64,000 bases of DNA from Mycolicibacterium cosmeticum (GTDB lineage Bacteria; Actinomycetota; Actinomycetes; Mycobacteriales; Mycobacteriaceae), in the NCBI RefSeq assembly GCF_000613185.1, contig NZ_CCBB010000003.1:372001-436000 (forward strand), written 5' to 3'. The position numbers and the translations under genes were made by a program. Positions 2,699 to 22,475 of this stretch are shown one piece after another. The notes beneath the pieces were generated by a model. That model was not told the DNA's origin. It saw nothing but the letters and a program-made list of their open reading frames with translations, and searched no databases. Within the stretch, counting starts at the first letter, position 1. Each line of letters begins with the position of its first letter.

Positions 2699-2827
2699 GG
2701 TGTCCTCGAATCTAGTCAGTGGCTAGTTTCACTATCGCACGCAGAACTTGTCACCGTCAAGATAAGTTGTGCCCGCGAGGTGCGAGCCGGCTGACCGGCC
2801 GGCAGCCCCTCCGGTCGACGCCGTCCG

Positions 2828-2833
2828 TAAGCT
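2828..2833 (+). promoter_or_regulatory. Candidate -10 box of SRPBCC gene
   Basis: TAAGCT fits the actinobacterial -10 pattern TANNNT and ends 7 nt before the GTG at 2841. That spacing would start the transcript at the initiation codon (leaderless mRNA). No convincing -35 is visible. Confidence 0.4.
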
Positions 2834-2840
2834 GTTGGCC

Positions 2841-3278
2841 GTGAACACGATTGTCTCCGCGAGCCGGGATATCGCGGCCCCCGCCGCCACGCTCTTCGAG
2901 CTGATCGCCGACCCGGCACAGCAGCCCCGCTGGGACGGCAACGACAATCTCGCCGACGCGCCCGCGGGCCAGCGCGTGCACGCCGTCGGCGACGTGTTCC
3001 GGATGAACATCACGACGGGCGCCGTGCGGGTCAACCGGATCGTCGAATTCGAAGAGGGCAGGCGCATCGCCTGGCTGCCGTCCGAGGAGGGCAAGGAGCC
3101 TCCCGGTCACCTGTGGCGGTGGGAGCTGGAACCGATCGACGAGGCCACCACCCGCGTCACCCACACCTACGACTGGACCCGGCTGACCGACGAGAAGCGG
3201 ATGGTCCGGGCTCGGGCGACCACGTCCGACAAACTCCTGGCATCGATCGACCGGCTGGCCGCGATCAGCGCGCCGTAG
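2841..3278 (+). CDS. SRPBCC family protein (polyketide cyclase/START-like)
   Basis: 145 residues from GTG 2841. The opening SRDIAAPAATLFELIADPAQQPRWDG and the later RWELEPIDEATTRVTHTYDW pattern are typical of the Bet-v1/SRPBCC ligand-binding fold. The start is preferred because it leaves two residues before the first strand and has a leaderless-type -10 just upstream; the longer frame from 2769 is not family-like. The ligand is unknown. The gene lies just upstream of the palindrome at 3284 and need not belong to the biosynthetic operon. Confidence 0.8.
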   Translation: MNTIVSASRDIAAPAATLFELIADPAQQPRWDGNDNLADAPAGQRVHAVGDVFRMNITTGAVRVNRIVEFEEGRRIAWLPSEEGKEPPGHLWRWELEPIDEATTRVTHTYDWTRLTDEKRMVRARATTSDKLLASIDRLAAISAP

Positions 3279-3597: not shown

Positions 3598-6312
3598 ATG
3601 CCACTGCTCATCACCGATCAGGCACCCGGTGACCGGGTGCGCGCGATGGCCGGCGGCAAGGCGCAGAACCTCTTCGAGCTGTCCCGTTCCGGCTTCCCGG
3701 TGCCGACGTGGGCGGTGTTGGGCACCGACGCGTTCCGGCTCGCGATCGACGCGGCGGGGGTGCGGCTGAGCACGGCGCCGATGGCGTTGTCCGAGCGGGT
3801 TGCCGAGGCCGCGTACGCCGAATCCGCGATACGCGAATTGGTCATGCCCGCGCAGATCCGGGAAGCCATTCTCGGTGCACTCGAATACACCGGAAACGGA
3901 AATGTCGCGGTGCGCTCCTCGGGCTGCCAAGAGGACGGCGCGGCGAATTCCTTTGCCGGATTATTCGACACCGTTCTCAATGTGACGGGAATCGATGCCG
4001 CCGAGGCAGCGGTCCGCCGTTGCTGGGCCTCCGCATTCTCCCGACGCGCCGCGCAATATCGGCATCTGCGCGGAATCGACACCGCCGATATCGCCCTGGC
4101 CGTCATCGTGCAGCGGTTGGTGCTGCCCCGGACCAGCGGCGTGATGTTCACCGCCGACCCGGTGACAGGTACGCCGGACCGAATCGTCATCAACGCCGTG
4201 CACGGGCTCGGTGAGGGACTGGTCTCGGGGGCGGTCGACTCCGACGCCGTCGTCGTCGCCAAGCACAGCGGAGCGGTCCTCGAAGAGACCACCGCCACCA
4301 AGTCGCAGATGATCCTGCCCGGCGCGGGCGGCGGTGTCCGCACCGCCGAGGTGCCGGCCGACCGCCAGCGGGTGCACCTCGTCGACCCCGGGCTACGGTC
4401 GGCGCTGACCGAACTCGGGATGCGGTTGGAGCGCCATTTCGGCACACCCCAGGACATCGAATGGGCGGTCGACGAGGACGGCCGCACCTGGATCCTGCAG
4501 TCCCGCCCGATCACCACCCTGGGCGGTCGAACTGCTGAGGGCCCAGAGCATTTCGGCGAGGACGTCGACCCCGGAGCGGTCCGGATCTGGGACAACTCGA
4601 ACATCATCGAGAGCTTCGCCGGCGTCACCTCGCCGCTGACCTTCACCACCGCCCGCACGCTCTACGCCGACGTCTACCGCGAGTACGCGCGCAGCCTGAA
4701 AGTGCCACCGGCACAACTGGACCAGATGCAGGCGTGGCTGCCGGTGATGCTCGGCCAATTCCACGGCCACGTCTACTACAACCTGCTGCACTGGTACCGC
4801 ATGGTGGGCATTGCCCCCGGCTACCCGCTGAACCGCCGGGTGCTGGAGGTCGCGCTCGGCGTCGGTGAACCGCTGGACGCCGCGACGGCGCGGCGGCTGA
4901 AACCGTTCACCTTCACCAGCACCGGCGCCACGATCGTGCACCGGGCCCGCACCACGCTGACCTATGCCCGGCGGTTCCACGCCATCGACGACCTGGTGCG
5001 CGAATTCGACCGCAAATTCCATGATTTCGTCACCCGGCACGGACTGGCCGACGTCTCCGAGCTGGACGGGCCGCAGGCCTACCGGAAATTCCGCCACATC
5101 CACGACGAGGTCGCCTCGATCTGGGGACCGATGATGGTGCTGGACGCCGTGCTGCTGACCTCGGTCGGTCTGCTCGCGGTGCTGACGAAGGCGTTCCTGC
5201 CGAACGCCCCGGAATGGTTCGGCTTCGCGATCGTCAATCCCGGCACCGACGTGGTGTCCATCGAACCGGCCCGGGCGCTCGCCGACATCGCCGCGTTCGC
5301 GCACAGCGCGCCCGAATTGTGGGCCTTCATCGATGCGGCCGACCCGGCCACCGCCTACCCGCAATTGGTGGAGTACGCCGAGGACGACCCCGGCTCCGCC
5401 TGGCAGCTGCTGCTCGGCAAGATCGACGACTACATCGACCGGTTCGGGTACCGCTGCCTGGACGAACTCAAGCTCGAAGCACCGGATCTGCGCCAGGATC
5501 CATCCGGCATCTTCCACATGCTGCGGATGGCCGCTCCCGAGGGCGCCGACCGCCCGAACGACGCCGCACAGGCGTATCTCGACGCGCACCTGCACGGCCC
5601 GCGCCGCAGGATCTTCGACGCGCTGCGCGGCAAGATCCAGCGCGCGGCCACCCACCGCGAGCACCTGCGGTTCGCCCGCACCCAAGGTTTCGGGATCCTG
5701 AAATCACTGGTCGCGGTGATGGCGCGGGACCTGCAGCAGCGCGGCATCGTCGACACCACCGGCGACGTCTTCCAACTGACCCGCGACGAGCTGTTCGGGC
5801 TCTACGACGGTTCGACCACCCGGGCGCAGGCACGGGCGGCCATCGCCCGGCGCACGGCCCTGGAGCCGGGATACCGGGAACTGAAGGCCCCGCCCCGGTT
5901 CGTCACGACCGGATCCGGCTATACCGCGGCCGAATTGGCCGGCGCGGGCTGGCGGCGCAGGGATGCCGTGGCCGAGGCGACGGCGGGCACGGTGCTGACC
6001 GGGACCCCGTCGAGTCCCGGGGTGGTGACCGGGCGCGCGGTCGTGGTGGAACGACCGGAGGACTTCTCCAGCGGCATCCTGGTGGCCTACCGCACCGACC
6101 CGGGCTGGGTGGCGGCGCTGCCGTTCGCCTCGGCCCTGCTCATCGAACGCGCGTCTCCGCTGACGCATGTCGCGATCATCGCCCGCGAGTTGGGGGTGCC
6201 CACCGTGGTGCAGATCGACGGCCTGACCGATCTCGTGCGCACCGGCATGACCGTCAGCGTGGACGGCGCGGCCGGCAGCGTCACCCTGCTGCAGGAGCGC
6301 TCCGATGTCTGA
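3598..6312 (+). CDS. PEP synthase/rifampicin-phosphotransferase-like dikinase
   Basis: 904 residues. The N-terminal PPDK-type ATP-binding domain (~1-310) shows GGKAQNL, AVRSSGCQEDGAANSFAG, QRLVLPRTSGVMFTADPVTG and ILQSRPITTL. A long unique middle region follows. The C-terminal swivelling phosphohistidine domain (~800-895) contains SPLTHVAIIARELGVP with the presumed carrier His857. The PEP-binding TIM barrel of true PEP synthase is missing, as in rifampicin phosphotransferase, which transfers the beta-phosphate of ATP to an acceptor hydroxyl. I infer phosphorylation of a pathway intermediate. The gene begins the tight operon and overlaps the next gene by 8 bp. Unusually A/T-ending codons near its 5' end hint at acquisition. 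Confidence 0.85.
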   Translation: MPLLITDQAPGDRVRAMAGGKAQNLFELSRSGFPVPTWAVLGTDAFRLAIDAAGVRLSTAPMALSERVAEAAYAESAIRELVMPAQIREAILGALEYTGNGNVAVRSSGCQEDGAANSFAGLFDTVLNVTGIDAAEAAVRRCWASAFSRRAAQYRHLRGIDTADIALAVIVQRLVLPRTSGVMFTADPVTGTPDRIVINAVHGLGEGLVSGAVDSDAVVVAKHSGAVLEETTATKSQMILPGAGGGVRTAEVPADRQRVHLVDPGLRSALTELGMRLERHFGTPQDIEWAVDEDGRTWILQSRPITTLGGRTAEGPEHFGEDVDPGAVRIWDNSNIIESFAGVTSPLTFTTARTLYADVYREYARSLKVPPAQLDQMQAWLPVMLGQFHGHVYYNLLHWYRMVGIAPGYPLNRRVLEVALGVGEPLDAATARRLKPFTFTSTGATIVHRARTTLTYARRFHAIDDLVREFDRKFHDFVTRHGLADVSELDGPQAYRKFRHIHDEVASIWGPMMVLDAVLLTSVGLLAVLTKAFLPNAPEWFGFAIVNPGTDVVSIEPARALADIAAFAHSAPELWAFIDAADPATAYPQLVEYAEDDPGSAWQLLLGKIDDYIDRFGYRCLDELKLEAPDLRQDPSGIFHMLRMAAPEGADRPNDAAQAYLDAHLHGPRRRIFDALRGKIQRAATHREHLRFARTQGFGILKSLVAVMARDLQQRGIVDTTGDVFQLTRDELFGLYDGSTTRAQARAAIARRTALEPGYRELKAPPRFVTTGSGYTAAELAGAGWRRRDAVAEATAGTVLTGTPSSPGVVTGRAVVVERPEDFSSGILVAYRTDPGWVAALPFASALLIERASPLTHVAIIARELGVPTVVQIDGLTDLVRTGMTVSVDGAAGSVTLLQERSDV

Positions 6313-9300
6313 GGTGCAGGCCATCCGCGGCTGGCTGGACACGCCCAGCGCCGACACCGGTGTGCACCTGGCGGACGACGACGGCTGGGACTATCTGCCG
6401 TATTCGGCGCTGGCCGAACAGGTTCGGCGGATCGCCGGACTGCTGGTGGATCGCGGCGTCGGCGCCGGGCACACCGTGTGCGTCCTGATGCCCACCTCAC
6501 ATCTGTGCCTGGCGGCGATGTTCGCGGTGACGGCCGCGGGTGCGACGCTGACACCGGTCGCACCGCCACTGTTCCACGACACCGACCAGTACCTGCGGCA
6601 TCTGCGCGGAATCTTGCAGAGTTCGCAGGCGCACACCGTGATCACCTGCTCGGCATTCGCCGGGGTCGTCGCGCAGGCGGCGGACGGCCCGGCCCGGATC
6701 GTGCTCGACGACACCCCCGACGGTGCGCCGCTGACCGATCTGGGCGATCCGGGTGCCGATGTGCTGCTGCAGATGACCTCCGGGTCGACCGGCCGGCCCC
6801 GCGGGGCACGGATCAGCTGGCGCAATCTGGCGGTCAACCTGGACGCCATCGACGCGGTGTGCCATCTGACCGCCGGTGACGCCACCGCGTCGTGGCTGCC
6901 GCTCTACCACGATATGGGGTTGATAGGCACCGTCTTTCAAGCGGTCACCCGGCAGCGCGGGCTACACCTGATGCGGCCGGACCAGTTCATCCGGGACCCG
7001 GGGCGCTGGTTGCGCGCGGCCGTCGAGACCGGACACACCGTGTCGCCCCCGTTCGGGCTGGCCTACACCGGCCGGCGGCTCACACCGGCCGACATCGACG
7101 ACCTGGACCTGTCGCGGTTGCGCACCATCGTGGTCGGGGCCGAACCGATCGATCCCGACGCCCTGCGCGCGTTCACCGAACTGACGGCGCCCCTGGGCTT
7201 TTCCCCGCGCGCCTTCCTGCCGTCCTACGGCCTGGCCGAGGCCACCCTGATCGCCACCGCGCACCGGCTGGGCGAACCGCTGCGGACGGTGCGCATCGAC
7301 AAAGCCGCGCTGCGACACGGCAAGCCGGTGCCGGTGGCCGAGCACGGCGCGCAGGTCGTTTCCGTGGGTGCACCGATCCCGGGACACCGGGTACGGATCG
7401 AGGGCGCCGCCGCCGACGGCGAACTCGGTGAGATCGTGCTGTCCGGGGACTCGGTCTTCGGGGGATACCGCGGTGACCCGGACAGCACGACCCGCCGCAT
7501 CGGCGACGAATTGCACACCGGCGACGCCGGATTCCTGCTCAACGGGCAGCTCTACGTGCTCGGGCGGATGGGCACCAGCCTCAAGGTCAACGGCCGCACC
7601 GTGTTCGCCGAGGACCTCGACGTCACCGGCCGGGCGGTGGCCGTCGCGGTCAACGAGGGAGACCGGCCCGCGGTGGCGATGTTCGTCGAACAACCGTGCC
7701 GCACCCCGATTCCCGCGCTGCGCTCCGCGCTGGCCGCGCAGGTCGGTGCCGACACCCCGGTGTGGTTCGTCGGCGTGCCCCGCGGCGGGCTGGCCCGCAC
7801 CTCCAGCGGCAAGCCGCGCCGCTCCCATATGTGGCAGCAGTGGCGATCGGGTCGGCTGGCCGGCGCCGAACTGCTGTCGGCGCCCGGGCCGGGTCCGCTG
7901 GACACGGTCCGGGCATTGTTCGACAAGGCACGCGAACACGCGGTGATCCCGGACGACGCGACGGTGCATTTCGAGGGCTCCCTGGCCGAGGGCTTCGGCA
8001 ACGACGGCTCCGATATCGATCTGCTCCTGCTGCTGCCCGGCGCCGGCGCGGAAGCCGTGATGCCGACCGTGTTGTTCATCGACGGTCACCGGGTGGAGAT
8101 CCGGGCCCAGTCACACGCGCAGGTCCGCAAGCGCCTGCACCAGATCCGGCGTGCCCTGGACACCGGCGCGCCGGTCACCGAGGACGTGCTGAACCGGGTG
8201 CAGCGCTTCCTGCGCGGCACCGTGCTGCGCACCGGTCCGGGATACGGGGACCTGCGCGACATCGTGAGCTATCCCGAGTTGACCGGCCTGCTGTCGCGGT
8301 GGTGGCAGCGCCGCGCCGACCACTGCCTTCGGCACGGCGCCGCGCTGGCCCTGCTGGGCGGGCCCACCGACACCGAGGCGGTGGCCTGGGCGCGCGAAGG
8401 CCTGACCCAGACCATGAAGGCGTTCCTGGCCCGGCACGGTGAGGGCTACCTGGAAGTCAAATGGCTGCCGCTGCAGATCGACCGGCTGCGCCGATCCGGG
8501 GCCGACACCGCACTGCTGGACGAGTACCAGCGGTTGGCGGCCGCCCCAACCGTGGCGGGCGCGCTCGCACTGGCCGCCCGGCTGGGCGGGCCGGCCGTCG
8601 CCTTGGACCCGCACGATGTGGTGCTGAAGAAGGTCCCGCACGTCACCACCTGGCCGATCCGCTCGGCCACCCATGTGGTGCGCGGCAAGTCGGACCTGTT
8701 CGTGCTGTCGCCGGCGTGCGCGCAGTCCTGGCGTCAGGTGGTGTTCGGGCAGACGCTGGCGCAGACCGCCGCCGCGCCGGCGCACCTCCGGTTGTTCGTC
8801 CGGCACGGGTTCGTCGCGCTGCACTGGCGCGGCGCCGGCACCATCAAACCCGTTGCCGCGATGTGTGACCCGGTTCGGCCGCTGACCCCGCCGCCGTCGG
8901 TGCGGCGGCCGGTGCTCACCATCGACGGTGCGCCGGCCGACGGCGACATCGCCAGGTCGGCCCTGCCGCCCAAGGCCTTCGCGGAGGCCGCGAGCGCGCT
9001 GGTGCTGGCCAACATGGTGCTGGAGAACGCACGCGAGGACTTCGACGGTGCGGTCAAGGACGGGCAATGGCAGGTGGCCGCCCTGTGCGGCCGGCGCATC
9101 GTCACCATGGCGGTCCGGATCCTGGCCAGCGCGTGGGGTGTCACCCCCTTGCCGGGGGATCCGGTGCTGCTGTCCGACCTGGACACGCTGGTACCGGAGC
9201 ATCCGCGACTGGCCGCCCACGCCCGTCGACTGGCCGGGTGTTCGATCGGCGACCAGGACGACGCGGCCCGCCTGCAGGCCGACCTGGACCGGCTCGTCGC

Positions 9301-9496
9301 CGACGTGCAGACCGTCACCGGCGGCGAGATGTTCCCCTCGTCGTTCGCCTCGCGTACGCAGTGGCAGGACACCCTGAAATACGGCTACCAGTGGCTGCGG
9401 ATGGGTGGATATCTGGACGCCTACGTGGAACTGGACGAGGCCAGAGATCTGCTGGCCAGCGGGGGAGCACAACCCTCGGAGCGGGGTCGGGCATGA
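6305..9496 (+). CDS. Adenylate-forming acyl ligase fused to polymerase-beta-type nucleotidyltransferase
   Basis: 1063 residues. Residues ~1-525 are an AMP-binding ligase of FAAL/acyl-CoA-synthetase type: P-loop TSGSTGRPRG at 158-167, LPSYGLAEATL near 305, HTGDAGFL near 405, SSGKPRR near 505. The lysine of TSGxxGxPKG is arginine here. From ~535 a second module begins with the nucleotidyltransferase signature EGSLAEGFGNDGSDIDLLL (Gly558-Ser559, Asp570, Asp572), followed by a long, mostly helical tail. An adjacent carrier-protein gene suggests the ligase loads an acyl-adenylate onto it. The nucleotidyltransferase may activate a phosphorylated or hydroxylated intermediate. I know of no well-characterised enzyme with this fusion. 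Confidence 0.8.
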   Translation: MSEVQAIRGWLDTPSADTGVHLADDDGWDYLPYSALAEQVRRIAGLLVDRGVGAGHTVCVLMPTSHLCLAAMFAVTAAGATLTPVAPPLFHDTDQYLRHLRGILQSSQAHTVITCSAFAGVVAQAADGPARIVLDDTPDGAPLTDLGDPGADVLLQMTSGSTGRPRGARISWRNLAVNLDAIDAVCHLTAGDATASWLPLYHDMGLIGTVFQAVTRQRGLHLMRPDQFIRDPGRWLRAAVETGHTVSPPFGLAYTGRRLTPADIDDLDLSRLRTIVVGAEPIDPDALRAFTELTAPLGFSPRAFLPSYGLAEATLIATAHRLGEPLRTVRIDKAALRHGKPVPVAEHGAQVVSVGAPIPGHRVRIEGAAADGELGEIVLSGDSVFGGYRGDPDSTTRRIGDELHTGDAGFLLNGQLYVLGRMGTSLKVNGRTVFAEDLDVTGRAVAVAVNEGDRPAVAMFVEQPCRTPIPALRSALAAQVGADTPVWFVGVPRGGLARTSSGKPRRSHMWQQWRSGRLAGAELLSAPGPGPLDTVRALFDKAREHAVIPDDATVHFEGSLAEGFGNDGSDIDLLLLLPGAGAEAVMPTVLFIDGHRVEIRAQSHAQVRKRLHQIRRALDTGAPVTEDVLNRVQRFLRGTVLRTGPGYGDLRDIVSYPELTGLLSRWWQRRADHCLRHGAALALLGGPTDTEAVAWAREGLTQTMKAFLARHGEGYLEVKWLPLQIDRLRRSGADTALLDEYQRLAAAPTVAGALALAARLGGPAVALDPHDVVLKKVPHVTTWPIRSATHVVRGKSDLFVLSPACAQSWRQVVFGQTLAQTAAAPAHLRLFVRHGFVALHWRGAGTIKPVAAMCDPVRPLTPPPSVRRPVLTIDGAPADGDIARSALPPKAFAEAASALVLANMVLENAREDFDGAVKDGQWQVAALCGRRIVTMAVRILASAWGVTPLPGDPVLLSDLDTLVPEHPRLAAHARRLAGCSIGDQDDAARLQADLDRLVADVQTVTGGEMFPSSFASRTQWQDTLKYGYQWLRMGGYLDAYVELDEARDLLASGGAQPSERGRA

Positions 9497-9738
9497 CGAA
9501 TCTGCAGCGCGACGTGCTCACCCTGGTCGCGGCCATGGCGCCGGACACCGCGGGGCAACCCGAATTGCACAGTGCACTGGTCACCGACCTCGGGTACAGC
9601 TCCCTGCGACTGCTGGAGTTGGCCATCGCCGTCGAGCGGGCCTTCGCCCTGCCGCCGCTGCCCCAGGAGGCGCTGGCAACCGTGACGACCGTCGCGGACC
9701 TGGTGGAAGTGGTTCGCACGCAGAAGGATCCGTCATGA
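9493..9738 (+). CDS. Acyl carrier protein
   Basis: 81 residues, a four-helix carrier fold. The motif DLGYSSLRLLELAIAVERAF corresponds to the phosphopantetheine site; the serine is in SSL where most carriers have DSL. Its ATG overlaps the ligase stop (ATGA), and its own stop overlaps the reductase start the same way, so the genes are translationally coupled. It probably carries the acyl or beta-ketoacyl chain between ligase, reductase and the AfsA-like synthase. Confidence 0.85.
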   Translation: MTNLQRDVLTLVAAMAPDTAGQPELHSALVTDLGYSSLRLLELAIAVERAFALPPLPQEALATVTTVADLVEVVRTQKDPS

Positions 9739-10817
9739 CCGGCGCTCGGGGGGTGTTGGTCACCGGCGCGGCCGGGCATGTCGGCGCCGACACGGTGGCC
9801 CGGCTGGTGCGCAGCGGTCACCACGTCGTTGCGCTGGTGCACCGGCGGGCCGAGATCGTCGCCAACAACGGGCGCGCGGTGCGGCCGGCCCGGACCGTGT
9901 ACGGCGACGTCCGTGCGCCGGGCTTCGGGTTGGACGCCGGCACGCGCCGCGAGCTCGCCGGCGAGATCGACGTCATCGTGCACGGTGCGGCGGTCACCGA
10001 TTTCGGCCTGCCCGAACACCGATACACCGAACTGAACGTGCAGGGCACCGCGCACGCCGTGGCGTGCGCGCGCGAATGGGACGCCGATCTGCTCTACGTC
10101 AGCACCGCCTACGTGTGCGGCGAGTACGACGGCACCTTCACCGAGGACCAGCTCGACGTCGGGCAGCGGTTCGGCAACGACTACGAACGCAGCAAATTCC
10201 GGGCCGAACAGCTGGTGCGGGCCTGCGGGCTGCGGTGGGCGATCGTGCGCCCCGGCATCGTCTCCGGCGAATACCGCACCGGGCACAGCCGCGAACACAA
10301 GCACATCTACCAGGTGCTCAAACTGATCGTCGAAGGAAAGTTGCAAACCCTGCCGGGCAATTACGCGGCGACACTCGGCCTTTCGCCGATCGGTCACGTC
10401 GCCGACACGATCGCCACGGTGGCCGGGCAGGTCGGCAGCCACGCCGGTCACACCTTCCACGCCGTCGGTGCCGCCCCGGTCTCGCTGCGCACCATGTCGG
10501 ACATCCTGGCCGAGTACCCGTCGTTCCGGGTCGCGGACTTCGTGCCACCGGCCACCTTCGACCCGGACGACCTCGACGATATCGAGCGCGGCTACTACGA
10601 CAAGGTCGGCCGCCTCTACACCAGCTACCTGTCGCGGCGGGTGTGCTTCGACAGCACCACCACCCGGGACCGGCTCGGCATCTGCGCACCGCATGCCGGT
10701 GCCGGCTACTTCCGCCGGATTCTCGACTCGTGCCTGCGCACCGGATACCTGGGCAGGCCGCAACCGTCCATCGCCGAGGTGCTGGCCACCTGGCAGACCG
10801 AGAGCAGCCCCGCATGA
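9735..10817 (+). CDS. Thioester-reductase-like extended SDR (NAD-binding_4)
   Basis: 360 residues. N-terminal nucleotide-binding TGAAGHVG, then STAYV and the YERSK catalytic pair typical of extended SDRs. The overall pattern (INVQGT-like NVQGTAHAV, RPGIVSGE, IGHVADTIATV) is that of reductase domains that release acyl chains from carrier proteins, and of fatty acyl reductases. Its position right after the carrier gene makes reduction of a carrier-bound thioester or of a butenolide/keto intermediate plausible. The start is fixed by an ATGA overlap with the carrier gene. Confidence 0.75.
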   Translation: MTGARGVLVTGAAGHVGADTVARLVRSGHHVVALVHRRAEIVANNGRAVRPARTVYGDVRAPGFGLDAGTRRELAGEIDVIVHGAAVTDFGLPEHRYTELNVQGTAHAVACAREWDADLLYVSTAYVCGEYDGTFTEDQLDVGQRFGNDYERSKFRAEQLVRACGLRWAIVRPGIVSGEYRTGHSREHKHIYQVLKLIVEGKLQTLPGNYAATLGLSPIGHVADTIATVAGQVGSHAGHTFHAVGAAPVSLRTMSDILAEYPSFRVADFVPPATFDPDDLDDIERGYYDKVGRLYTSYLSRRVCFDSTTTRDRLGICAPHAGAGYFRRILDSCLRTGYLGRPQPSIAEVLATWQTESSPA

Positions 10818-11647
10818 CCCACAGTGACGTCGTCAGCAGGTACGCCACCGACACGTATTTCGTCCAGACCCACGACGTGCTGGACCGCTTGCACCTCGAC
10901 GCGGCCGAATTCTCCTTCGGCCGCGCGGTGCTGCTGCTCAAACCGGATGCCGCGGTGACCGGTGGGATGAGCCGGGCGGTGACCTGGTTGCGCGGCAACG
11001 ACTACCGCATCGTCGGGGCGCACCCGGTTCGGCTCACCCCGCTACATCTGCGTGCGCTGTGGTACTTCAACTGGCATCGTGCCACCGCCGACCGGCGCCG
11101 GCTGGCCGATCAGTTGGCGCAGCTCAGTCCGTCGCTGGTGCTGATCGTCACCCATCCCGACCGCACCCAGCCGGTGTCGGTGCGCCTGACCGCCGACAAG
11201 GGCCCGGCCGATCCGGCGCAGCGGGCGCCCGGTCAGCTGCGGCACGCCCTGTCGTCCGGCACCTATCTGCTCAACCAGGTGCATTCCCCGGACGACCCCG
11301 ACGACGTGCTGCGTGAGCTGAGCATCTACTTCCCGGAAACCGTTCTGGGCGATGTCATCTCGGCAGCCCGCGCCGGCGCCGACGCGTCGGACGACGCGAC
11401 CCGGCTGGCGGCCGAGATCGAAGCCGGCGTACCGCGGCGCAACGGTGACCTGGCCGCCGCCCAGGACGACACCTGGCGGCGGCTGCGGGAAGCCGGACAG
11501 CTCGCACGGCCCGCAACGGGCCAGGACTGGCTGGCGGCCATCGACACCGCCGACCGGCAACGCATTCCGCTCGATGCGTGGTATCGCATCGTCCTGCAAT
11601 CGGCCTATCTGCCCATGCACCGGGCCCAACAGAACGGTGAATCATGA
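10814..11647 (+). CDS. Nucleoside-diphosphate-kinase-like protein
   Basis: 277 residues, about twice the size of a housekeeping NDP kinase. Residues ~35-195 follow the NDK fold: AVLLLKPDAAVTGG at the start, then a loop around DKGPADPAQRAPGQLRHAL, then LNQVHSPDDPDDVLRELSIYF. The last of these aligns with the NxxHGSD active-site segment, so the phosphate-carrying histidine appears conserved. The extra C-terminal ~80 residues are not recognised. In this operon it probably acts on a pathway metabolite or interacts with the dikinase or nucleotidyltransferase. It is coupled to both neighbours by ATGA overlaps. Confidence 0.75.
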   Translation: MTHSDVVSRYATDTYFVQTHDVLDRLHLDAAEFSFGRAVLLLKPDAAVTGGMSRAVTWLRGNDYRIVGAHPVRLTPLHLRALWYFNWHRATADRRRLADQLAQLSPSLVLIVTHPDRTQPVSVRLTADKGPADPAQRAPGQLRHALSSGTYLLNQVHSPDDPDDVLRELSIYFPETVLGDVISAARAGADASDDATRLAAEIEAGVPRRNGDLAAAQDDTWRRLREAGQLARPATGQDWLAAIDTADRQRIPLDAWYRIVLQSAYLPMHRAQQNGES

Positions 11648-12576
11648 ACGCCAGCAACCATTCCCGGACCATCGACCGCGAACTCGTGCACAAACGCGCG
11701 GTCTCGGAGGTACTCGTCACCTCCGTCACCGGAGCCGCCGAGTCGACCGATCCATGGCTGTGCCATGCTCAGCTGCCCCGACGGCACAGCTTCCACACCG
11801 ACATGACCGGTGCACAGGGCCAGTACCACGACCCGCTGCTGGTCATGGAGGCCTTCCGGCAGGCCTGCATCGCGGCCAGTCACCTGTTCTACGACGTCGC
11901 CCTGGATGCCCGGCACACGGTCCGCTACTACGAGCTGACGGTGGTCGACCCGGCCGCGCTGCGGCGCGGCCGGCAGACCCTGGACCTGGAATTCACCATC
12001 ATGGTGCGCAGGGAATTCCGCCGCGGGCAGGACGGGCCCGTGCAAGGCCTCGACGTGGCCGGGGTCGCCACCCACGAGGGCACCAAGCTGATGGAGCTCT
12101 CCGGTGCCTTCGGCTGGATGTCGGCGGCCAAGTGGACGGCGTTACGGGCCGGTGCCAGTTGGGATCCCGGGCCGCAGATCACGCCGGCCCATCCGGACCG
12201 GGTGGGCCGGTCCTGCCGGGAGAACGTGGTGATCGGTGAGCCGGCACCGCACGCCGACGGGGCGTGTGCGCCGGTGGTGGTCGACATCGCGCACCCGACG
12301 ATCTTCGATCACCCACTGGACCACCTGCCCGGCGGCCTGATCATCGAAGCCGGCCGCCAGCTGGCCATGACCTTGCTGGGCGGCCGCGCCGCCGCGGTCA
12401 CCGGTCCGGCCCGGATGCGCTGCGATTTCCAGTCGTTCACCGAGCTCGACGCGCCCAGTACCGTCACGATGGCACCGGCCGGCGAGGATGCGCTGACCTT
12501 CCGCGGTGCGGTGACCCAGTCCGGGCAGACGCGAGCGACCGTCGAACTGACCTTCGCCGCCGATGACCATATCTAG
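11644..12576 (+). CDS. AfsA/ScbA-family gamma-butyrolactone synthase
   Basis: 310 residues with two AfsA (hot-dog-like) repeats. The first opens with LVHKRAVSEVLVTSV, the hallmark of AfsA, ScbA and BarX. The second contains HPTIFDHPLDHLPGGLIIEAGRQ, matching the conserved DHVPGMLLLEA-type segment of the family. AfsA proteins condense a beta-ketoacyl thioester with dihydroxyacetone phosphate in the first committed step to A-factor-type butyrolactones. Finding one inside a mycobacterial operon with lipid-loading and phosphotransfer enzymes is the main clue to the locus. No ArpA-like receptor gene is adjacent. It overlaps ubiA by 14 bp. Confidence 0.88.
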   Translation: MNASNHSRTIDRELVHKRAVSEVLVTSVTGAAESTDPWLCHAQLPRRHSFHTDMTGAQGQYHDPLLVMEAFRQACIAASHLFYDVALDARHTVRYYELTVVDPAALRRGRQTLDLEFTIMVRREFRRGQDGPVQGLDVAGVATHEGTKLMELSGAFGWMSAAKWTALRAGASWDPGPQITPAHPDRVGRSCRENVVIGEPAPHADGACAPVVVDIAHPTIFDHPLDHLPGGLIIEAGRQLAMTLLGGRAAAVTGPARMRCDFQSFTELDAPSTVTMAPAGEDALTFRGAVTQSGQTRATVELTFAADDHI

Positions 12577-13405
12577 ATTCCTGGCCGAACGATATCTACC
12601 GGTCTACCCGGTCTATCTGACGTTGTGGGTGCTCGCCGTCGAGAGCATGACGCACGTGCTGGCCGGGGCGCCGGGCGGGTGGCGCCCGACCTGGGACACC
12701 GCGCTGAAAGCGTTGGCGCTCATCGCTGCCGGCGCGTTTCTGCGGATGGTCGACGATCAGAAGGATCTCGACTACGACCGGCGGTACAACCCGTCACGCC
12801 CGTTGGTGCAGGGGCGCATCAGCACGCGGGAACTGCAGGTGGCGATGGCTCCGGCCGCCATGGTGGCGCTGCTGCTGGCCGCGGCGGTTTCCCTGCCTGC
12901 CGCGGCCGTCCTGGCATCGGCACTGGGATACGGGCTGGCGTTGTGGTGGGCGGAATCCCGGCTCCCGGCGGTGCGGGACAACCCGTTGGTCAATCTTGCG
13001 GTGGTGTGCCCGGCCCAGTTCCTGGTGACCGGATTCATCATGTTCGGGCAGCCCGGCCTCGGCCCGTCCGCGCTGGCCGTACCGCTGGTGTTCACCAGTG
13101 CCTTCCTGCACCTGGAATTCGCCAGGAAGACCTCGCGGCACGTCGCCGCCGATGATCCGCACTCGTACGCCCGCATCCTCGGGGTTAACGGGAGTGCCTG
13201 GGCCGCATGGGCATTCGGGGTCGGTGCGGTGTTGCTGGCGGTGGCCGTGACCGGCAGCCGGCCGCTGCTTGCGGTGGCGGTGCTGCCCTGTGTGGGATTG
13301 TGGATCTTCGGCCGCCGACGACCAGTTGACCATCCCCGGGTCTGGCCCACCGTCTTCGTCATCGCCTTCTACCTCTGCATCATCGTCACGGGCCTGTTCG
13401 GCTAG
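12563..13405 (+). CDS. UbiA-family prenyltransferase
   Basis: 280 residues with about eight hydrophobic segments. The first Asp-rich motif, RMVDDQKDLDYDRRYNPSRP (Asp64, 65, 68, 70, 72), matches the magnesium-diphosphate site of membrane UbiA prenyltransferases. The second Asp motif is less clear. The enzyme would attach a polyprenyl (or related diphosphate) group to an acceptor in the membrane. Overlap with the AfsA-like gene and a 12-bp gap to the glycosyltransferase place it firmly in the operon. The acceptor is unknown. Confidence 0.85.
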   Translation: MTISRFLAERYLPVYPVYLTLWVLAVESMTHVLAGAPGGWRPTWDTALKALALIAAGAFLRMVDDQKDLDYDRRYNPSRPLVQGRISTRELQVAMAPAAMVALLLAAAVSLPAAAVLASALGYGLALWWAESRLPAVRDNPLVNLAVVCPAQFLVTGFIMFGQPGLGPSALAVPLVFTSAFLHLEFARKTSRHVAADDPHSYARILGVNGSAWAAWAFGVGAVLLAVAVTGSRPLLAVAVLPCVGLWIFGRRRPVDHPRVWPTVFVIAFYLCIIVTGLFG

Positions 13406-13417
13406 AAAGGTGCCATC

Positions 13418-14701
13418 GTGCGCATCCTCATCCCTCTCGTCGGCAGCCGCGGCGACGTCCAGCCCGGGATCGCGCTGGGCCTGGAGCTGGAACGCCGGGG
13501 ACACACCGTCATCATCGGCGCGCCACCGAATTTCGTCGACTTCGTCGGCAGAACCGGTCTGACGGCCCGTCGCTTCGGGCCCGACGTGCATGCCCTGTAC
13601 TCGTCACCCGAGGGGCAGCGTGCGTTGGCCGCCGGCAATTCGTTCAAACTGATGTCGATGGTGTCGGGCCAGATGGCCGACTACGCCGACCGGATGGACG
13701 ACGAGCTGCTCGACATCGCGCAGGACGCCGAGATGATCATCTGCACCACCTTCAGCGAGGACAGGTCGGTGATCCTGGCCGAGGCGCGCGATATCCCGAT
13801 GGTCACCCTGCACACCTACCCCAGTCGCCGCAACGGCAGCTACGCCCCACCGGGGGCGCTGCCGCACCACTGGCCGACACCCGCCGTGGTGAACCGCGCC
13901 GCCTGGTCGGCGGTCGAGCGGCTGCGCACCGTGGTGTTCGGCAAGTACCTCAACAACCTGCGCACCAAGCTGGACCTGCCGAAGTCCAGGTCGAGCACCG
14001 AAGCACTGCTCGCCCGGCGCCGGGTGCCCGAACTGCAGATGTACGATCCTGCGTTGGTGCCCGGGCTGGCCGAGGAGTGGGGCGCCGCACGGCCTTTCGT
14101 CGGATTCCTGTGGCTGCCCCGGTCGGCGCGGGAAGCGATCGGCGAGTTGGCCGACCAGCACACCGAGGTGCTGGAGTGGGCGAAAGCCGGGACCCCGCCC
14201 ATCTTCTTCGGGTTCGGCAGCCTGCCGATCCAGGACTTCGGATCGGTGATCGGGCTGATCCGGCGGATCTGCGATCGCACCGGCCAGCGGGCGCTGATCA
14301 GCGTGGGCGGCGCGGCGCTGGGCGCCGACACCGTGCACACCGGCTCCAACCTGCTCATCGTCGACGCCCTGGCGCACGACCTGGTCTTCCCGTACTGCGG
14401 CGCCGCCGTGCACCACGGCGGCATCGGTACCCTGTTCGAGAGTCTGCGCGCCGGCCTGCCGACCCTGGTGTGTTCGGTGTCCTTCGATCAGCCGTTGTGG
14501 GGCAACCAGGTCGAGCGCCTCGGCGTCGGCGCGCACGTGCCGTTCACCAAACTCGGCGCCGACACCTTGAGCGGTGCGATCGACACCCTGCTGGACGAGC
14601 GGACCCGTGTCGCGGCGGCCGCGCTGGGGGCGCGGCTGCGGGCGACCGGTGACGGGGTGCCGCGGGTGTGCGATATCGCCGAGAAGACCGCAGCCGGCTA
14701 A
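13418..14701 (+). CDS. GT1/GT28-type glycosyltransferase
   Basis: 427 residues, GTG start with GAAAGG upstream. The opening LIPLVGSRGDVQPGIALGLEL is typical of sterol/UDP-glucuronosyl and macrolide-type glycosyltransferases. The donor-binding segment VHHGGIGTLFESLRAGLP with VSFDQPLWGNQVERLG lies near residue 330. It probably glycosylates the lipid product. It is the last + strand gene of the operon and overlaps the convergent P450 gene by 4 bp. Confidence 0.88.
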   Translation: MRILIPLVGSRGDVQPGIALGLELERRGHTVIIGAPPNFVDFVGRTGLTARRFGPDVHALYSSPEGQRALAAGNSFKLMSMVSGQMADYADRMDDELLDIAQDAEMIICTTFSEDRSVILAEARDIPMVTLHTYPSRRNGSYAPPGALPHHWPTPAVVNRAAWSAVERLRTVVFGKYLNNLRTKLDLPKSRSSTEALLARRRVPELQMYDPALVPGLAEEWGAARPFVGFLWLPRSAREAIGELADQHTEVLEWAKAGTPPIFFGFGSLPIQDFGSVIGLIRRICDRTGQRALISVGGAALGADTVHTGSNLLIVDALAHDLVFPYCGAAVHHGGIGTLFESLRAGLPTLVCSVSFDQPLWGNQVERLGVGAHVPFTKLGADTLSGAIDTLLDERTRVAAAALGARLRATGDGVPRVCDIAEKTAAG

Positions 14702-15981
14702 CGTCGCGCCGTCAGCGTCACCGGCAGCGTGGCCGGTGACAGCACGAAGTCCTTGCCCTGGGCCTTGACGGCGAAATCGTCGGGCAGGGTCACCCGCCAG
14801 TGGGAGAACAACGCGGCCGCCTGCGCGGTGATCGACAGCAGCGCGAATTGGCTTCCTGGACAATGTCGTTGGCCCATGCCGAACGGCATCATGGCCTGCC
14901 GGTCAGCGGTGTCACCGTCCCACCGGTCCGGGTCGAAGACCGCCGCACGCGGGAAGTAGCGCTCCTGGTGGTGCACCAGGTAGGGACTGAACAGGATGTT
15001 GGTGCCGTCGGGGAAGTCGGCAGAGCCGATGCGGACCGGTCCGTCGGAGGTGAGCAGGCTGATCCACGGCGCCCACACCCGCAGCGTCTCGGTGAGCACC
15101 TTGCGCAGCAACGGCCGCTCGGGGCCGGCATCCAGTTCGGCGTGCACCCGTTCGGCCAGTTGCGGTGCCCGGGCGACCTCGTAGATGAGCCACGAGAAGA
15201 TCGAGGATTGCGAACCGATTCCGGCGGCCAGCGCCAGCAGCAGCTCGTCGACCATGTCGTCGTCGGACAACGTCGCGCCGGTCTCGGCGTCGACATGATG
15301 CAGCAGGGCCGAGAGCATATCGCCGCGATCGGGGTCGTCACGGCGCTGCCGGATCAGGGACCGCATGGCGGCGCGGACCTCCCGGGACCGGCCGATAAAC
15401 CTACGGTCGGCCCAGAACCGAAGCCGGCGAATCGGTTTGGGCAGCGCACCGCGGATGATGACCTCGGACAGCAGCCACGGCACCCGTTCCCGGATGAAGC
15501 CGATCGCACCATCGTCGGTGTCGGATTGGAAGAGGGTGGCGAACATGGTGCGGGTCACCAGGTCGTGTACCCGCAGGCGCAGGTCCCCGCACGGACCCGC
15601 ACTCAGGGAGGCCGACCATTCGTCGGCGATGGTGGTCACGGTGCGCGTGTACTCGGTCAGCCGGCCCTGCCGGAACACCGGGGCGATCAGCCTGCGGCGC
15701 AGGTCGTGCTCGTCACCGCTGAGCACATTGGTGGCCCCGCTGACCAGATCGCTGATCGCCTCCCGCAGCGCCTCGCGGTGGAAGTTGCCCGCCCGGCCCA
15801 GGCTGACGTCGCGGATCAACTCGGGCGTGGTCAGCAGGTAGGAGGCTTGCGGGCCGAGGTAGACGCGCAGGATCGGCTCGTGGCTGGGTAGGGAGAGCAG
15901 GAATTTCCGCGGGTCGCCGGCGACCAGGTGAGTATGCCCCAGAACCGGTACTCTGCCTGCGGCGGTGGGTATCTCAGCCAT
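14698..15981 (-). CDS. Cytochrome P450 with atypical I-helix
   Basis: 427 residues. The haem-binding loop FGMGQRHCPGSQFAL near residue 370 and the K-helix ETLRVW near 300 identify a P450. The I-helix segment reads LLLALAAGIGSQSSIFSW where most P450s have AGx(D/E)T, so the acid-alcohol pair used in oxygen activation is replaced by Gly-Ser. This may mean substrate-assisted chemistry or a non-monooxygenase reaction. The start at 15981 (MAEIPTAAG) is inside the acyltransferase stop region (8-bp overlap), so the two genes form a coupled minus-strand pair. Longer readings upstream are out of context. Confidence 0.85.
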   Translation of the reverse strand: MAEIPTAAGRVPVLGHTHLVAGDPRKFLLSLPSHEPILRVYLGPQASYLLTTPELIRDVSLGRAGNFHREALREAISDLVSGATNVLSGDEHDLRRRLIAPVFRQGRLTEYTRTVTTIADEWSASLSAGPCGDLRLRVHDLVTRTMFATLFQSDTDDGAIGFIRERVPWLLSEVIIRGALPKPIRRLRFWADRRFIGRSREVRAAMRSLIRQRRDDPDRGDMLSALLHHVDAETGATLSDDDMVDELLLALAAGIGSQSSIFSWLIYEVARAPQLAERVHAELDAGPERPLLRKVLTETLRVWAPWISLLTSDGPVRIGSADFPDGTNILFSPYLVHHQERYFPRAAVFDPDRWDGDTADRQAMMPFGMGQRHCPGSQFALLSITAQAAALFSHWRVTLPDDFAVKAQGKDFVLSPATLPVTLTARR

Positions 15982-17221
15982 CCAGCATCGCCAGCAGCAG
16001 CGCCCTGATCCGGTCGGCGAAGGCCTGGGCCCGGTCGGCGGTGAGCACCGCGGCGGGATAGGTGGTCTGGATGTTGAGCCGGCCGCCGTAACTGAACACG
16101 GCGTGATGCCGGCCGGTGGACAGCGGCAGATTCTCCGGCGGGCCACCGGCGGCCAGCACGGCGTAGTTCGCGTTACCGCGGACCCGGAAGTCGGACGCCG
16201 GCACCGGCAGCGACCCGAAATCGCCCATGTTCGAGACGGAGATCGGCTCCAGGTTGTCGCTGCTGGCCCAGCGGGCGATGATCTCCGGGATGTGCAGGCA
16301 GGTCTGCTGTACCACCCCGTCGTCCAGATCGGTGTGCAGCTGCGCCAGGATCTGCTCGCCGATCGCGCGCGCGTCGTCGCCGCGGCCGACGGACACCTGC
16401 GCGCACGAATAACCCAGCACGTTGGTCCCGTCGGCGTCCCGCGCCGGTGGCGTCAGCCACTTGCGGATGTTGACGTGGGAGATCAGCCCGAGCGGCAGCG
16501 CACCGTCCGGCTCCAGCAGCTCACGCTCGGCGGAAAGGACCGCGCCGCAGATCAATCCGTGCAACGTCTCCTGGTGGGCCTTGGCCGACGCGCGCAGGGC
16601 GGCAGTCTCGTCGGGACCGAACACGGTGATCAACCGGTGCAGGGCGAACGGGTCCGCGCCGGTGATCCGGCCGACCGGGTCTGCGAACGGGTGCACGGGT
16701 ACCCCGTCGAGCCGTTCGGCGCCGGTGCGGGTGCCCTTGGTGACGCCGCGGTCGGCGAGCAGGGTCTCGGTGGCCGCCGGGACCGGTGCCGGCTCCGGTG
16801 CCGGAATCGTTGCGCCGGCAACGATCTGGGTGTAGTTCTCCCAGAGGGTGCGGAACCAGTGGTACATCAGGATGCCGTCGGCGATGGCGTGGTGGGTGAT
16901 CAGGCTGGCCCATTCGCCGGTGACATCGAGACCCGCGACCGGGGCGCCGAAGGCGATGGGGGTGGTGGTGTTGTGCTCCGGGTCGACCCGGCCGGTGCTC
17001 ACCGGCTCGGGTGCGGCGCCGTCCACCGCCAGCTCCAGGCCCGCCGCACCGAACTCGATCCGCCCGGTCAGCACCGGATTACGCTGCACCAGTAGCTCCC
17101 ACGCGCGCCCCAGTGCGTCCCGGTCCAGCGGTTCGGTGACCCGAATCGCCATCACCGTCGTCTCGGACACCAGCGCGTGGATCGACTCGAACGGGGAAAG
17201 CGGCCGTCCGTGCGGGCTCAC
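15974..17221 (-). CDS. PapA-like acyltransferase (condensation-domain superfamily)
   Basis: 415 residues from GTG 17221. The catalytic HHxxxDG motif is present as His110-His111...Asp115-Gly116 (THHAIADGILMYHW), and the C-terminal FSYGGRLNIQTTY matches the DFGWG-like region of PapA/WS-DGAT proteins. Mycobacterial Pap enzymes esterify lipid or sugar alcohols with activated fatty acids. No polyketide synthase gene is present, so the acceptor is probably the glycosylated product of the convergent operon. Confidence 0.82.
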   Translation of the reverse strand: MSPHGRPLSPFESIHALVSETTVMAIRVTEPLDRDALGRAWELLVQRNPVLTGRIEFGAAGLELAVDGAAPEPVSTGRVDPEHNTTTPIAFGAPVAGLDVTGEWASLITHHAIADGILMYHWFRTLWENYTQIVAGATIPAPEPAPVPAATETLLADRGVTKGTRTGAERLDGVPVHPFADPVGRITGADPFALHRLITVFGPDETAALRASAKAHQETLHGLICGAVLSAERELLEPDGALPLGLISHVNIRKWLTPPARDADGTNVLGYSCAQVSVGRGDDARAIGEQILAQLHTDLDDGVVQQTCLHIPEIIARWASSDNLEPISVSNMGDFGSLPVPASDFRVRGNANYAVLAAGGPPENLPLSTGRHHAVFSYGGRLNIQTTYPAAVLTADRAQAFADRIRALLLAMLDG

Positions 17222-17651: not shown

Positions 17652-18557
17652 TCACACTGAGACGTCCACGTCTTCTTCTACGCCCCAATCATCGGCGGGG
17701 TCCGCGTAGCCGGCGCGGTCACCCGCGGAGTGTAATTTCGGGTACACCCGCGCAGCGAACGCGTAATCGGTTGCGTTGATATCGGTGCCGCCCCGGATGG
17801 GTTTGCCGTCATACGTGATCGCTCCCGGCAGCTGGTAACACATGATCGAGTCCTGGTCGGCGGCGGTTCCGATGATCGACGCGCTGTTCAGCGGTGTCAG
17901 CACTTGCTGGTCGACCATCTCCTTCGACCAGCCCTGGTTGGCCAGGAAATACGGATATGCCTTGGCCGGGTCGATTCGCTCCACCAGCTCTTTGCGCATG
18001 TGTTCGTGTGGGAAGCCGAGGGTGTGCCCCGCCTCGTGACGGATGACCCGCCGGAACTCCGAGTCCGGGGTGTTCATCGTGAAGTTCTGGAGATTCATCG
18101 TTTGCCGATTGGGCGGAACCAGCTTGATGTCGGAGCCGAGGTAGGACCAGTAACCGCCCGGTCCGCGAGATATGCGGACATCACCCACACCTGCGGTTTG
18201 GGTGAACGAGACGCCGGTCCGCAGGCTCCAGGCATTGAGATGGCTGACGATGCGGGCCCGCAGGTCCGACGGCGTGGCCTCCATGAAGCTGACCGAAAAC
18301 ACGCGCTGAGCAGGACCCCAGTACTTCGTTGTCAGCAGCGTGAGCGCCAGTGGCGCATCGGGAAGGGATGCAGCAATATTGGCGAACTCGAGGAGCGGTG
18401 CGTTCGCCGGGTTGAGTCTGATGCTCACCTTCGCGGCACGTTCGGTCAACCGGAGCGGCAGACGCTTGATGCTGCAGGCGACGTCCGGCGGGGAATCCGA
18501 CGGCTCGTGGCCGTTCGACGCATCAGACATCGTGGATTCGAGTTGTGTGGCGGTCAT
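17652..18557 (-). CDS. Astacin-like zinc metalloprotease (metzincin)
   Basis: 301 residues. The extended zinc motif HEAGHTLGFPHE (His174, Glu175, His178, His184) and a Met-turn SIMCY (Met239) define a metzincin of astacin/M12A type. A short N-terminal segment without an obvious secretion signal precedes a beta-rich domain. AGAGGA before ATG 18557 supports the start. The promoter region contains the perfect palindrome at 18639-18656 shared with the biosynthetic operon, so expression is probably co-controlled with that locus. The substrate is unknown. Confidence 0.85.
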   Translation of the reverse strand: MTATQLESTMSDASNGHEPSDSPPDVACSIKRLPLRLTERAAKVSIRLNPANAPLLEFANIAASLPDAPLALTLLTTKYWGPAQRVFSVSFMEATPSDLRARIVSHLNAWSLRTGVSFTQTAGVGDVRISRGPGGYWSYLGSDIKLVPPNRQTMNLQNFTMNTPDSEFRRVIRHEAGHTLGFPHEHMRKELVERIDPAKAYPYFLANQGWSKEMVDQQVLTPLNSASIIGTAADQDSIMCYQLPGAITYDGKPIRGGTDINATDYAFAARVYPKLHSAGDRAGYADPADDWGVEEDVDVSV

Positions 18558-18638
18558 GACAATGTCCTCTCGTTGTGATCACTGCGGCCGGTGCAGCAGC
18601 GATCACACCGAGTATCTGGCGGCGCAGGGGAGAGGATT

Positions 18639-18656
18639 CGAGTAGTGCACTACTCG
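18639..18656. promoter_or_regulatory. Perfect 18-bp palindrome, operator 2
   Basis: CGAGTAGTGCACTACTCG is a perfect dyad 81 nt upstream of the metalloprotease start. It matches the palindrome at 3284-3301 in all but two positions and shares flanking bases (GATT) with it. It probably marks a common regulator of the protease pair and the AfsA operon. Confidence 0.65.
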
Positions 18657-18705
18657 GGTTCGGGGCCGAGTCGCGCAGTACGTTTGACTGCAGACCGGAA
18701 CCGGT

Positions 18706-20847: not shown

Positions 20848-20857
20848 CCGGTGTGAC

Positions 20858-21727: not shown

Positions 21728-21740
21728 TTTTCCCCGGCGA

Positions 21741-22451: not shown

Positions 22452-22475
22452 GGCGGCTCCCGATTCTACGTGGAT

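Follow-up and report, generated by a model that had tools for sequence, protein, structure and literature searches.

The operon and its genes

The window analyzed here is a 64,000-nucleotide stretch of the Mycolicibacterium cosmeticum genome. It contains eight genes on the plus strand that overlap or nearly touch (3598-14701), followed by a convergent P450-PapA gene pair. The core of this operon is homologous to a nine-gene operon of Salinispora that fits the published salinipostin (spt) cluster, and the operon is probably of the spt type, building a lactone lipid with an alkyl phosphate. The genes are listed below.

3598..6312, plus strand: A, dikinase with a PPDK_N ATP-binding domain and a mobile phosphohistidine domain, Spt1-like (Pfam; NF004881)
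6305..9496, plus strand: B, fatty-acyl-AMP ligase (FAAL; about residues 1-525) fused to an ANT-like nucleotidyltransferase (NT) with a possible C-terminal HEPN-like domain (about residues 526-1063), Spt2- plus Spt3-like
9493..9738, plus strand: C, acyl carrier protein (ACP), Spt4-like (PF00550, 24.0 bits; cut-off 20.8)
9735..10817, plus strand: D, thioester-reductase-like SDR, Spt5-like (PF07993, 119.4 bits)
10814..11647, plus strand: E, NDK-like kinase with a C-terminal extension, Spt6-like (PF00334, 40.0 bits; cut-off 27)
11644..12576, plus strand: F, AfsA-type synthase with two hotdog halves, Spt9-like (PF03756, 110.3 bits)
12563..13405, plus strand: G, UbiA-family membrane enzyme, Spt7-like
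13418..14701, plus strand: H, GT1-type glycosyltransferase, tailoring (PF06722 and PF03033)
14698..15981, minus strand: I, cytochrome P450, tailoring (PF00067, 138.9 bits; start inferred, long open reading frame to 16146)
15974..17221, minus strand: J, PapA-type acyltransferase, tailoring (PF16911, 142.4 bits; HHxxxDG in the translation, which we take to be the motif of PapA-type acyltransferases)

The positions, domains, and junctions given for the eight plus-strand genes in an earlier note, made from the sequence alone, were borne out by the list of open reading frames, Pfam, and direct reading. ATGA junctions were read at 9493, 9735, 10814, and 11644, with further overlaps at 6305 and 12563. 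The glycosyltransferase gene starts with GTG at 13418, 12 bases past the UbiA stop, and overlaps the convergent P450 gene by 4 bases (14698-14701). The P450-acyltransferase pair of the earlier note is present, but the P450 gene most likely starts at the ATG at 15981 and not at 16146, because residues 1-55 of the long open reading frame overlie the PapA gene, and with the shorter form profile matches set in at residue 3-6. With this start, the PapA and P450 genes overlap by 8 bases (PapA stop at 15974-15976).

Relation to the Salinispora operon

A scan of named genomes with an NT alignment gave 141 relatives. The best 80 were retained and include Salinispora oceanensis and S. cortesiana. The S. 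oceanensis operon (nine genes, 11,158 bp) encodes, in this order, dikinase, FAAL, NT, ACP, SDR, NDK, UbiA, a luciferase-like F420-type oxidoreductase, and AfsA. It is matched gene by gene in S. cortesiana (94-97%), and one AfsA gene per genome was found in the two species, in this operon. The nine proteins of Salinispora locus L134 were compared with the window by tblastn: genes A-G, with eight activities, matched eight of the nine genes at 30-48% identity, on a single strand and in near-identical order. The window differs in that FAAL and NT are fused, UbiA and AfsA are swapped, the F420 oxidoreductase is absent, and GT1, P450, and PapA are added.

The spt cluster of Salinispora is the subject of work by Amos (2017), Kudo (2020), and Creamer (2021), the last of which is said to describe nine genes in spt, with spt9 as the lactone synthase, and spt-like clusters outside Salinispora. 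In Table 1 of PMC7888443, spt of S. tropica CNB-440 is entered as a butyrolactone-class cluster of 11.1 kb with the product salinipostin (strop_RS20900-RS20940); these tags correspond to nine genes if each step of five is used. PMC8609351 counts the cluster in 112 strains belonging to 7 species of Salinispora. The Salinispora nine-gene operon agrees with published spt in its genus, its class, the number of genes, and its size, the comparison being made on these features and not through the S. tropica genes. The idea of salinipostin- or cyclophostin-type chemistry with three phospho- or nucleotidyl-transfer enzymes, which the earlier note had put forward, is well supported by this operon-wide homology. 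As judged from sequence, the window operon appears to be a mycobacterial variant within the known spt-like class, not a new class; a literature search turned up no open-access paper on mycobacterial spt-like clusters.

Occurrence and gene order in relatives

The comparison included 92 loci, namely the window, eleven from other genomes, and the 80 found through NT. Dikinase, NT, SDR, NDK, AfsA, and UbiA genes were used as diagnostic, with presence scored at E 1e-6. All six were found in 81 loci (79 distinct, as two genomes were fetched twice: L095=L099 and L075=L164), in every case on one strand within 8.1-15.2 kb. As NT served to find 80 of the 92 loci, this count is one of co-occurrence given NT. 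The remaining 11 loci comprised seven with dikinase, NT, and SDR (one, L113, a short contig), two with dikinase, AfsA, and UbiA, and two cut by contig ends.

The order dikinase-FAAL-NT-ACP-SDR-NDK-AfsA-UbiA was observed in 49 of the 81 full-core loci; 23 were without FAAL and ACP, six had UbiA before AfsA, and three were singletons. Across all genera, FAAL and NT were adjacent in 62 loci, and in 44 of these they were fused. The operons of Nocardia, Gordonia, Tsukamurella, and Antrihabitans have the A-G order and the FAAL-NT fusion in common with the window; unlike the window, many Nocardia operons carry a nitroreductase gene after AfsA, and PapA was not found in the operons of these four genera. 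In Streptomyces, Kutzneria, and Rhodococcus rhodnii, the six diagnostic genes stand in order, as in the window, whereas linked FAAL or ACP is missing from operons of this group (the 23 of 81, including every Streptomyces among those named) and a nitroreductase is present in many. In the Streptomyces loci L099-L118, which belong to the operons without linked FAAL and ACP, the NT-SDR gap was read by eye in L099 and L106 and showed no carrier protein.

Starting from AfsA, a match was obtained in 14 of 148 relatives. Fifteen stretches around AfsA matches were examined (E 1e-4): five had the A-G core, two AfsA with dikinase and UbiA, five AfsA alone, and three nothing. The five A-G stretches were all from the same genus as the window, with the core in order and 50-77% protein identity. 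In an NT profile search, the gene was found in 18 of 396 same-genus genomes, including that of the window, and all 18 carry dikinase, FAAL-NT, ACP, SDR, NDK, AfsA, and UbiA together. The earlier note had proposed whole-family co-occurrence as a check and genes lying apart in relatives as evidence against a common pathway: the genes stay together in the 81 loci and the 18 genomes, and smaller AfsA clusters do exist in L034 (own genus) and L041. These two (L041:9173-17220, L034:10185-16462) contain dikinase, UbiA, and AfsA without NT or NDK; in addition, L041 encodes a DUF6182 protein and two more that match nothing in Pfam, and L034 encodes a P450.

Enzyme families and catalytic residues

Dikinase A matched NF004881, named phosphoenolpyruvate (PEP) synthase, with 897.6 bits (cut-off 883); the same model fits the Salinispora homologue best (1448.8), and the two proteins are 45% identical. 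In A, only PPDK_N and PEP-utilizers were matched (Pfam, E 0.001), with no match to the pyruvate/PEP-binding C-terminal barrel, which we take to be PF02896. The rifampicin phosphotransferase Rph and the prodigiosin ligases PigC/RedH likewise combine PPDK_N with a mobile His domain (E-values 1e-83 to 1e-106), but the dikinase scores far under the cut-offs of all these models. The dikinase His was kept in 87 of 88 homologues (84 T-H, three S-H, one incomplete).

The C-terminal half of B is a putative NT by its motif, a model, and its relatives; no Pfam match above cut-off was obtained for this half in the window protein. The ANT-type motif (G-S, D-x-D, and a third acidic residue) is present and is invariant in the NT alignment; across the loci it was kept in 86 of 89 cases, with two of the rest partial and one having G to C. 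The structure search with this half, which bears on a possible ANT(4') fold with a HEPN-like C-terminal bundle, spans residues 4-238 and 366-482, the middle part being barely covered. SDR D is 48% identical to its Salinispora homologue. The NDK-like protein E retains KPD and N-x-x-H, with the active-site His present, and meets the Pfam NDK cut-off, but reaches 29.1 bits with the NCBIfam equivalog NF001908 (cut-off 155). KPD was kept in all 82 homologues and the active-site His in 81 (79 by the first pattern, two as N-x-A-H), the one left being cut by a contig end. The E-x-x-R-Q motif of AfsA was kept in 81 of 81; a PDB sequence search with AfsA returned nothing useful.

These residues bear on whether the operon makes mainly an A-factor-like hormone, with the phospho-enzymes and UbiA serving minor or storage forms. 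The AfsA family match agrees with such a plain butyrolactone signal, and work by Kudo from 2020 reportedly found A-factor-like lactones among the products of the spt operon. However, catalytic residues are retained in the phospho-enzymes just as in AfsA, the order of these enzymes is preserved across 81 loci, and no TetR/ArpA-type receptor was found in the ten flanking proteins scanned or in the operon. An AfsA-type synthase is common to the classical A-factor/ScbA loci and the window, which differs from them in having seven further conserved activities and no receptor gene found near its operon. A plain signal is therefore considered unlikely.

A phosphorus-free prenylated or glycosylated lactone would require UbiA to move a prenyl group from a prenyl diphosphate, with the kinases merely supplying the latter. 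UbiA G has the superfamily fold and the first Asp-rich motif, and its best structural matches are prenyl-diphosphate-using enzymes, as this reading would have it. UbiA prenyltransferases normally carry a second Asp-rich motif, but its place in G, assigned by sequence position and not by superposition, is taken by E-x-A-R-K-T, each residue of which occurs in at least 93% of the 81 UbiA homologues. Moreover, the families of FAAL, ACP, and thioester reductase speak for a fatty chain and not a prenyl one, and PMC6681047 gives C15 and C16 phosphate esters for salinipostin F and cyclipostin T. This second reading is thus judged very unlikely.

Trees and selection

Six single-gene trees were made from 42 hand-picked taxa. 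The mycobacterial clade (6 tips) was recovered in each (support 0.999-1.0), as were the 24 Mycobacteriales tips, with support of 0.81-0.99 except in the dikinase tree. The GT and P450 trees (23 taxa) keep the split between mycobacteria and the others (1.0). The ratio of nonsynonymous to synonymous substitution rates (dN/dS) was 0.06-0.25 for six genes, the P450 gene not among them, in three pairs of relatives. That the genes are a chance or decaying collection with no shared pathway is extremely improbable given these ratios, the same gene order from Salinispora to Nocardia, and the congruent mycobacterial clade in six trees, even though NT in only 18 of 396 same-genus genomes would suit it and indicates that the operon is dispensable.

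Proposed modules and a possible reductase slot

The reading as an spt-type operon for an alkyl-phosphate lactone lipid is extended by six loci (L143, L149, L155, L156, L165, L171) that keep dikinase, NT, ACP, and SDR and in which no AfsA or NDK was found (fetched stretch, E 1e-3). The dikinases of L143, L149, L155, L156, and L165 have both domains (Pfam). In L143 (1609-20326, a Gordonia metagenome-assembled genome) and L165 (14035-20273, Antrihabitans cavernicola), two thymidylate-kinase-like proteins each stand beside dikinase, FAAL-NT, ACP, and SDR, which, with no NDK found, fits a second phosphorylation. At E 1e-6, L143 was first counted as UbiA-free, but part of UbiA is matched there (E 2e-5; 39% over 73 residues). 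Going by gene content, dikinase, FAAL-NT, ACP, and SDR may make up an alkyl-phosphate module that can move, and AfsA with UbiA and NDK an acceptor module, the second kinase being NDK- or thymidylate-kinase-like. As ligase, ACP, and SDR travel with dikinase and NT in these six loci, they more probably make a fatty alcohol, and the FAAL-NT fusion favours NT action on the alkyl side. The earlier proposal that ligase and carrier supply the chain may accordingly be kept for the fatty alcohol of the phosphate ester rather than for a beta-keto chain for AfsA.

The L143 stretch also contains ABC ATPase, ketosynthase (KS), and non-ribosomal peptide synthetase (NRPS) genes, and that of L165 an FtsX permease gene. 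The other AfsA-free loci are from Lentzea (L156, L171), Plantactinospora (L149), and Nocardia mexicana (L155, a second locus); acyl-CoA dehydrogenases are present in L156 and L155, an FMO-like protein in L155, and a P450 in L149. In these four, the alkyl-phosphate module possibly serves to build a different class of product. No clear pathway emerged from the surroundings of NDK genes elsewhere than in the operon (L076, L078, L082): a dikinase gene adjoins an NDK-like gene in L076:8958-12483, where the rest of the operon is missing, and three NDK-like genes lie within about 16 kb in L082 (G091:C3:1776000-1795900), near an SDR and an EPSP-synthase-like gene.

In A-factor synthesis, BprA acts after AfsA. 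It is listed for this synthesis as butenolide phosphate reductase in PMC10090380. The AfsA-UbiA gap exceeds 450 bases in 25 full-core loci, and the six gap genes scanned all encode nitroreductases of about 205 residues. A nitroreductase was present in the fetched stretch of 45 of the 81 full-core loci and the F420 enzyme in 7, never both, which leaves 29 with neither; in one Streptomyces group, the nitroreductase gene stands after UbiA. Two unrelated reductases thus seem to fill the same place in spt-like operons. The window and the five mycobacteria of the set are among the 29 loci with neither, so in mycobacteria the ring would either be reduced by an enzyme encoded elsewhere or stay a butenolide. 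The M. cosmeticum genome was searched for unlinked candidates. One protein, a nitroreductase sharing 44% identity with the enzyme of the Nocardia operon, gave no evidence of a dedicated reductase and was judged generic, because 106 of 148 relatives have such homologues, as do 85 of 88 same-genus genomes, its own included. The Salinispora F420 enzyme gave 39 generic luciferase-like matches (best 34%), and none was accepted as its orthologue.

Tailoring genes and neighbourhood

GT1 and P450 genes lie beside the operon in 15 of the 18 NT-bearing same-genus genomes, and PapA in two, the window and G995 (94%). In the three genomes without GT1 and a related P450 (G032, G948, G976), ABC-2 exporter genes adjoin the operon; the exporter domains were read in L031 (3868-6544), and L237 and L239 contain homologues. 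L239 was scored as lacking P450, but a weak match to it (26%) lies on the opposite flank of the operon there. No PapA remnant was matched in the loci of the first set at E 1, and an apparent N-terminal P450 extension in L029 was rejected, since it overlies the end of the neighbouring helicase gene. In Nocardia, Gordonia, Tsukamurella, and Antrihabitans, related P450 (45-49%) and GT1 (52-61%) genes were found where present in the fetched stretch. Of the 81 full-core loci, mycobacteria included, 21 have a P450 at 40% identity or more and 13 have GT1. In the group of Streptomyces, Kutzneria, and Rhodococcus rhodnii, L122, L119, and L130 carry other P450 or GT1 genes upstream of the operon. The P450 is fused to GT4 in the two proteins of about 900 residues that were scanned, in Nocardia carnea (L164:15946-18636) and Gordonia polyisoprenivorans (L166:16179-18887). 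The earlier note had UbiA, glycosyltransferase, P450, and PapA all decorating the product; GT, P450, and PapA alone look like tailoring, UbiA being part of the conserved core and not a prenyl-tailoring enzyme.

Twelve of the 18 operons adjoin the same helicase gene, which in the window lies at 25503-27179, about 8 kb past PapA. Between them (17652-24107) are genes for an astacin-like protein, a CDC48-type AAA ATPase, a CDP-alcohol phosphatidyltransferase, a phosphatidylserine decarboxylase, and MoeA. Upstream of the operon, one further gene is possibly, and tentatively, associated:

2769..3278, plus strand: SRPBCC/polyketide-cyclase-like protein (PF10604, 38.1 bits)

Several same-genus relatives also have an SRPBCC gene upstream of the operon, with 28-30% identity to this one, which is itself preceded by an FAD-binding aromatic-hydroxylase-like gene (917-2299).

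Proposed pathway and product

The families, motifs, operon structure, Salinispora homology, and selection described above were observed; from them we infer the product, substrates, and order of steps. FAAL would adenylate a fatty acid and load it onto ACP (step 1), and SDR would reduce the acyl thioester to a fatty alcohol (step 2). The dikinase would phosphorylate the alcohol with ATP via its phosphohistidine domain (step 3), and the NDK-like kinase would add a second phosphate to give an alkyl diphosphate (step 4). AfsA would join a beta-ketoacyl thioester and dihydroxyacetone phosphate to a butenolide phosphate (step 5), and UbiA, whose family uses diphosphate donors, would combine this with the alkyl diphosphate (step 6). 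NT may activate a phosphate so that a cyclic phosphotriester can be closed by the enol oxygen; it would do so either early, as an NDP-alkyl, or late, on the diester (step 7). Finally, P450 would hydroxylate, GT1 glycosylate, and, here, PapA acylate the product (step 8). The product is most likely an alkyl-phosphate-bearing butenolide or butyrolactone glycolipid. Most certain are the building of the lactone core by AfsA and the spt type of the operon, least certain the roles of UbiA and NT.

Several points weigh against this proposal. In the window operon, nothing linked corresponds to the Salinispora F420 oxidoreductase; as 74 of the 81 full-core loci likewise gave no match to it, it is not a defining feature of the wider family. 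AfsA scores 182.7 bits with NF041195 (ScbA/BarX), under the cut-off of 200, as does the Salinispora homologue (184.5 bits). The 23 operons without linked FAAL or ACP indicate that this part is not universal, although the absence of ACP at E 1e-6 is weak evidence, as the protein is short. Step 4 needs a changed substrate, because NDK normally acts on diphosphates, and thymidylate-kinase-like genes were found in only two of the six AfsA-free loci (L149, L155, and L156 partly scanned, L171 unscanned). Step 6 is bold, since we know of no non-allylic fatty-alkyl diphosphates acting as UbiA donors, and the second motif of UbiA is unusual in not being Asp-rich. In the dikinase tree, the Mycobacteriales group has a support of 0.02. 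Of 20 splits, the GT and P450 trees each have only 11 in common with the core tree, and each lacks six core splits that are well supported. Between the window and L029, dN/dS was 0.15-0.35 with dS near 1.

Significance

Cyclipostin and cyclophostin analogues are described in PMC5603573 and PMC6681047 as halting the growth of Mycobacterium tuberculosis, apparently by acting on a large number of serine and cysteine enzymes that serve lipid and cell-wall metabolism. The occurrence of a pathway of this type in mycobacteria raises the question of its use and of the survival of the producer. In a tentative and rather doubtful scenario, a few environmental mycobacteria could make glycosylated relatives of the cyclipostins and salinipostins, a class that stops mycobacteria by attacking serine hydrolases. 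They would do so via a fatty-alkyl diphosphate that UbiA moves onto a phosphate, where its family would move a prenyl group onto an organic acceptor, with the sugar, added by GT1 after P450, or, in the three genomes that have neither, the ABC-2 exporter protecting the producer. The comparison of about 80 loci makes phosphotriester assembly testable, as it offers modules, an exchangeable reductase slot, and residues to mutate. With its variant of the genes from which a marine bacterium produces phosphorus-containing lactone lipids, this environmental mycobacterium may form a sugar-bearing relative of compounds with a known blocking action on mycobacterial enzymes.

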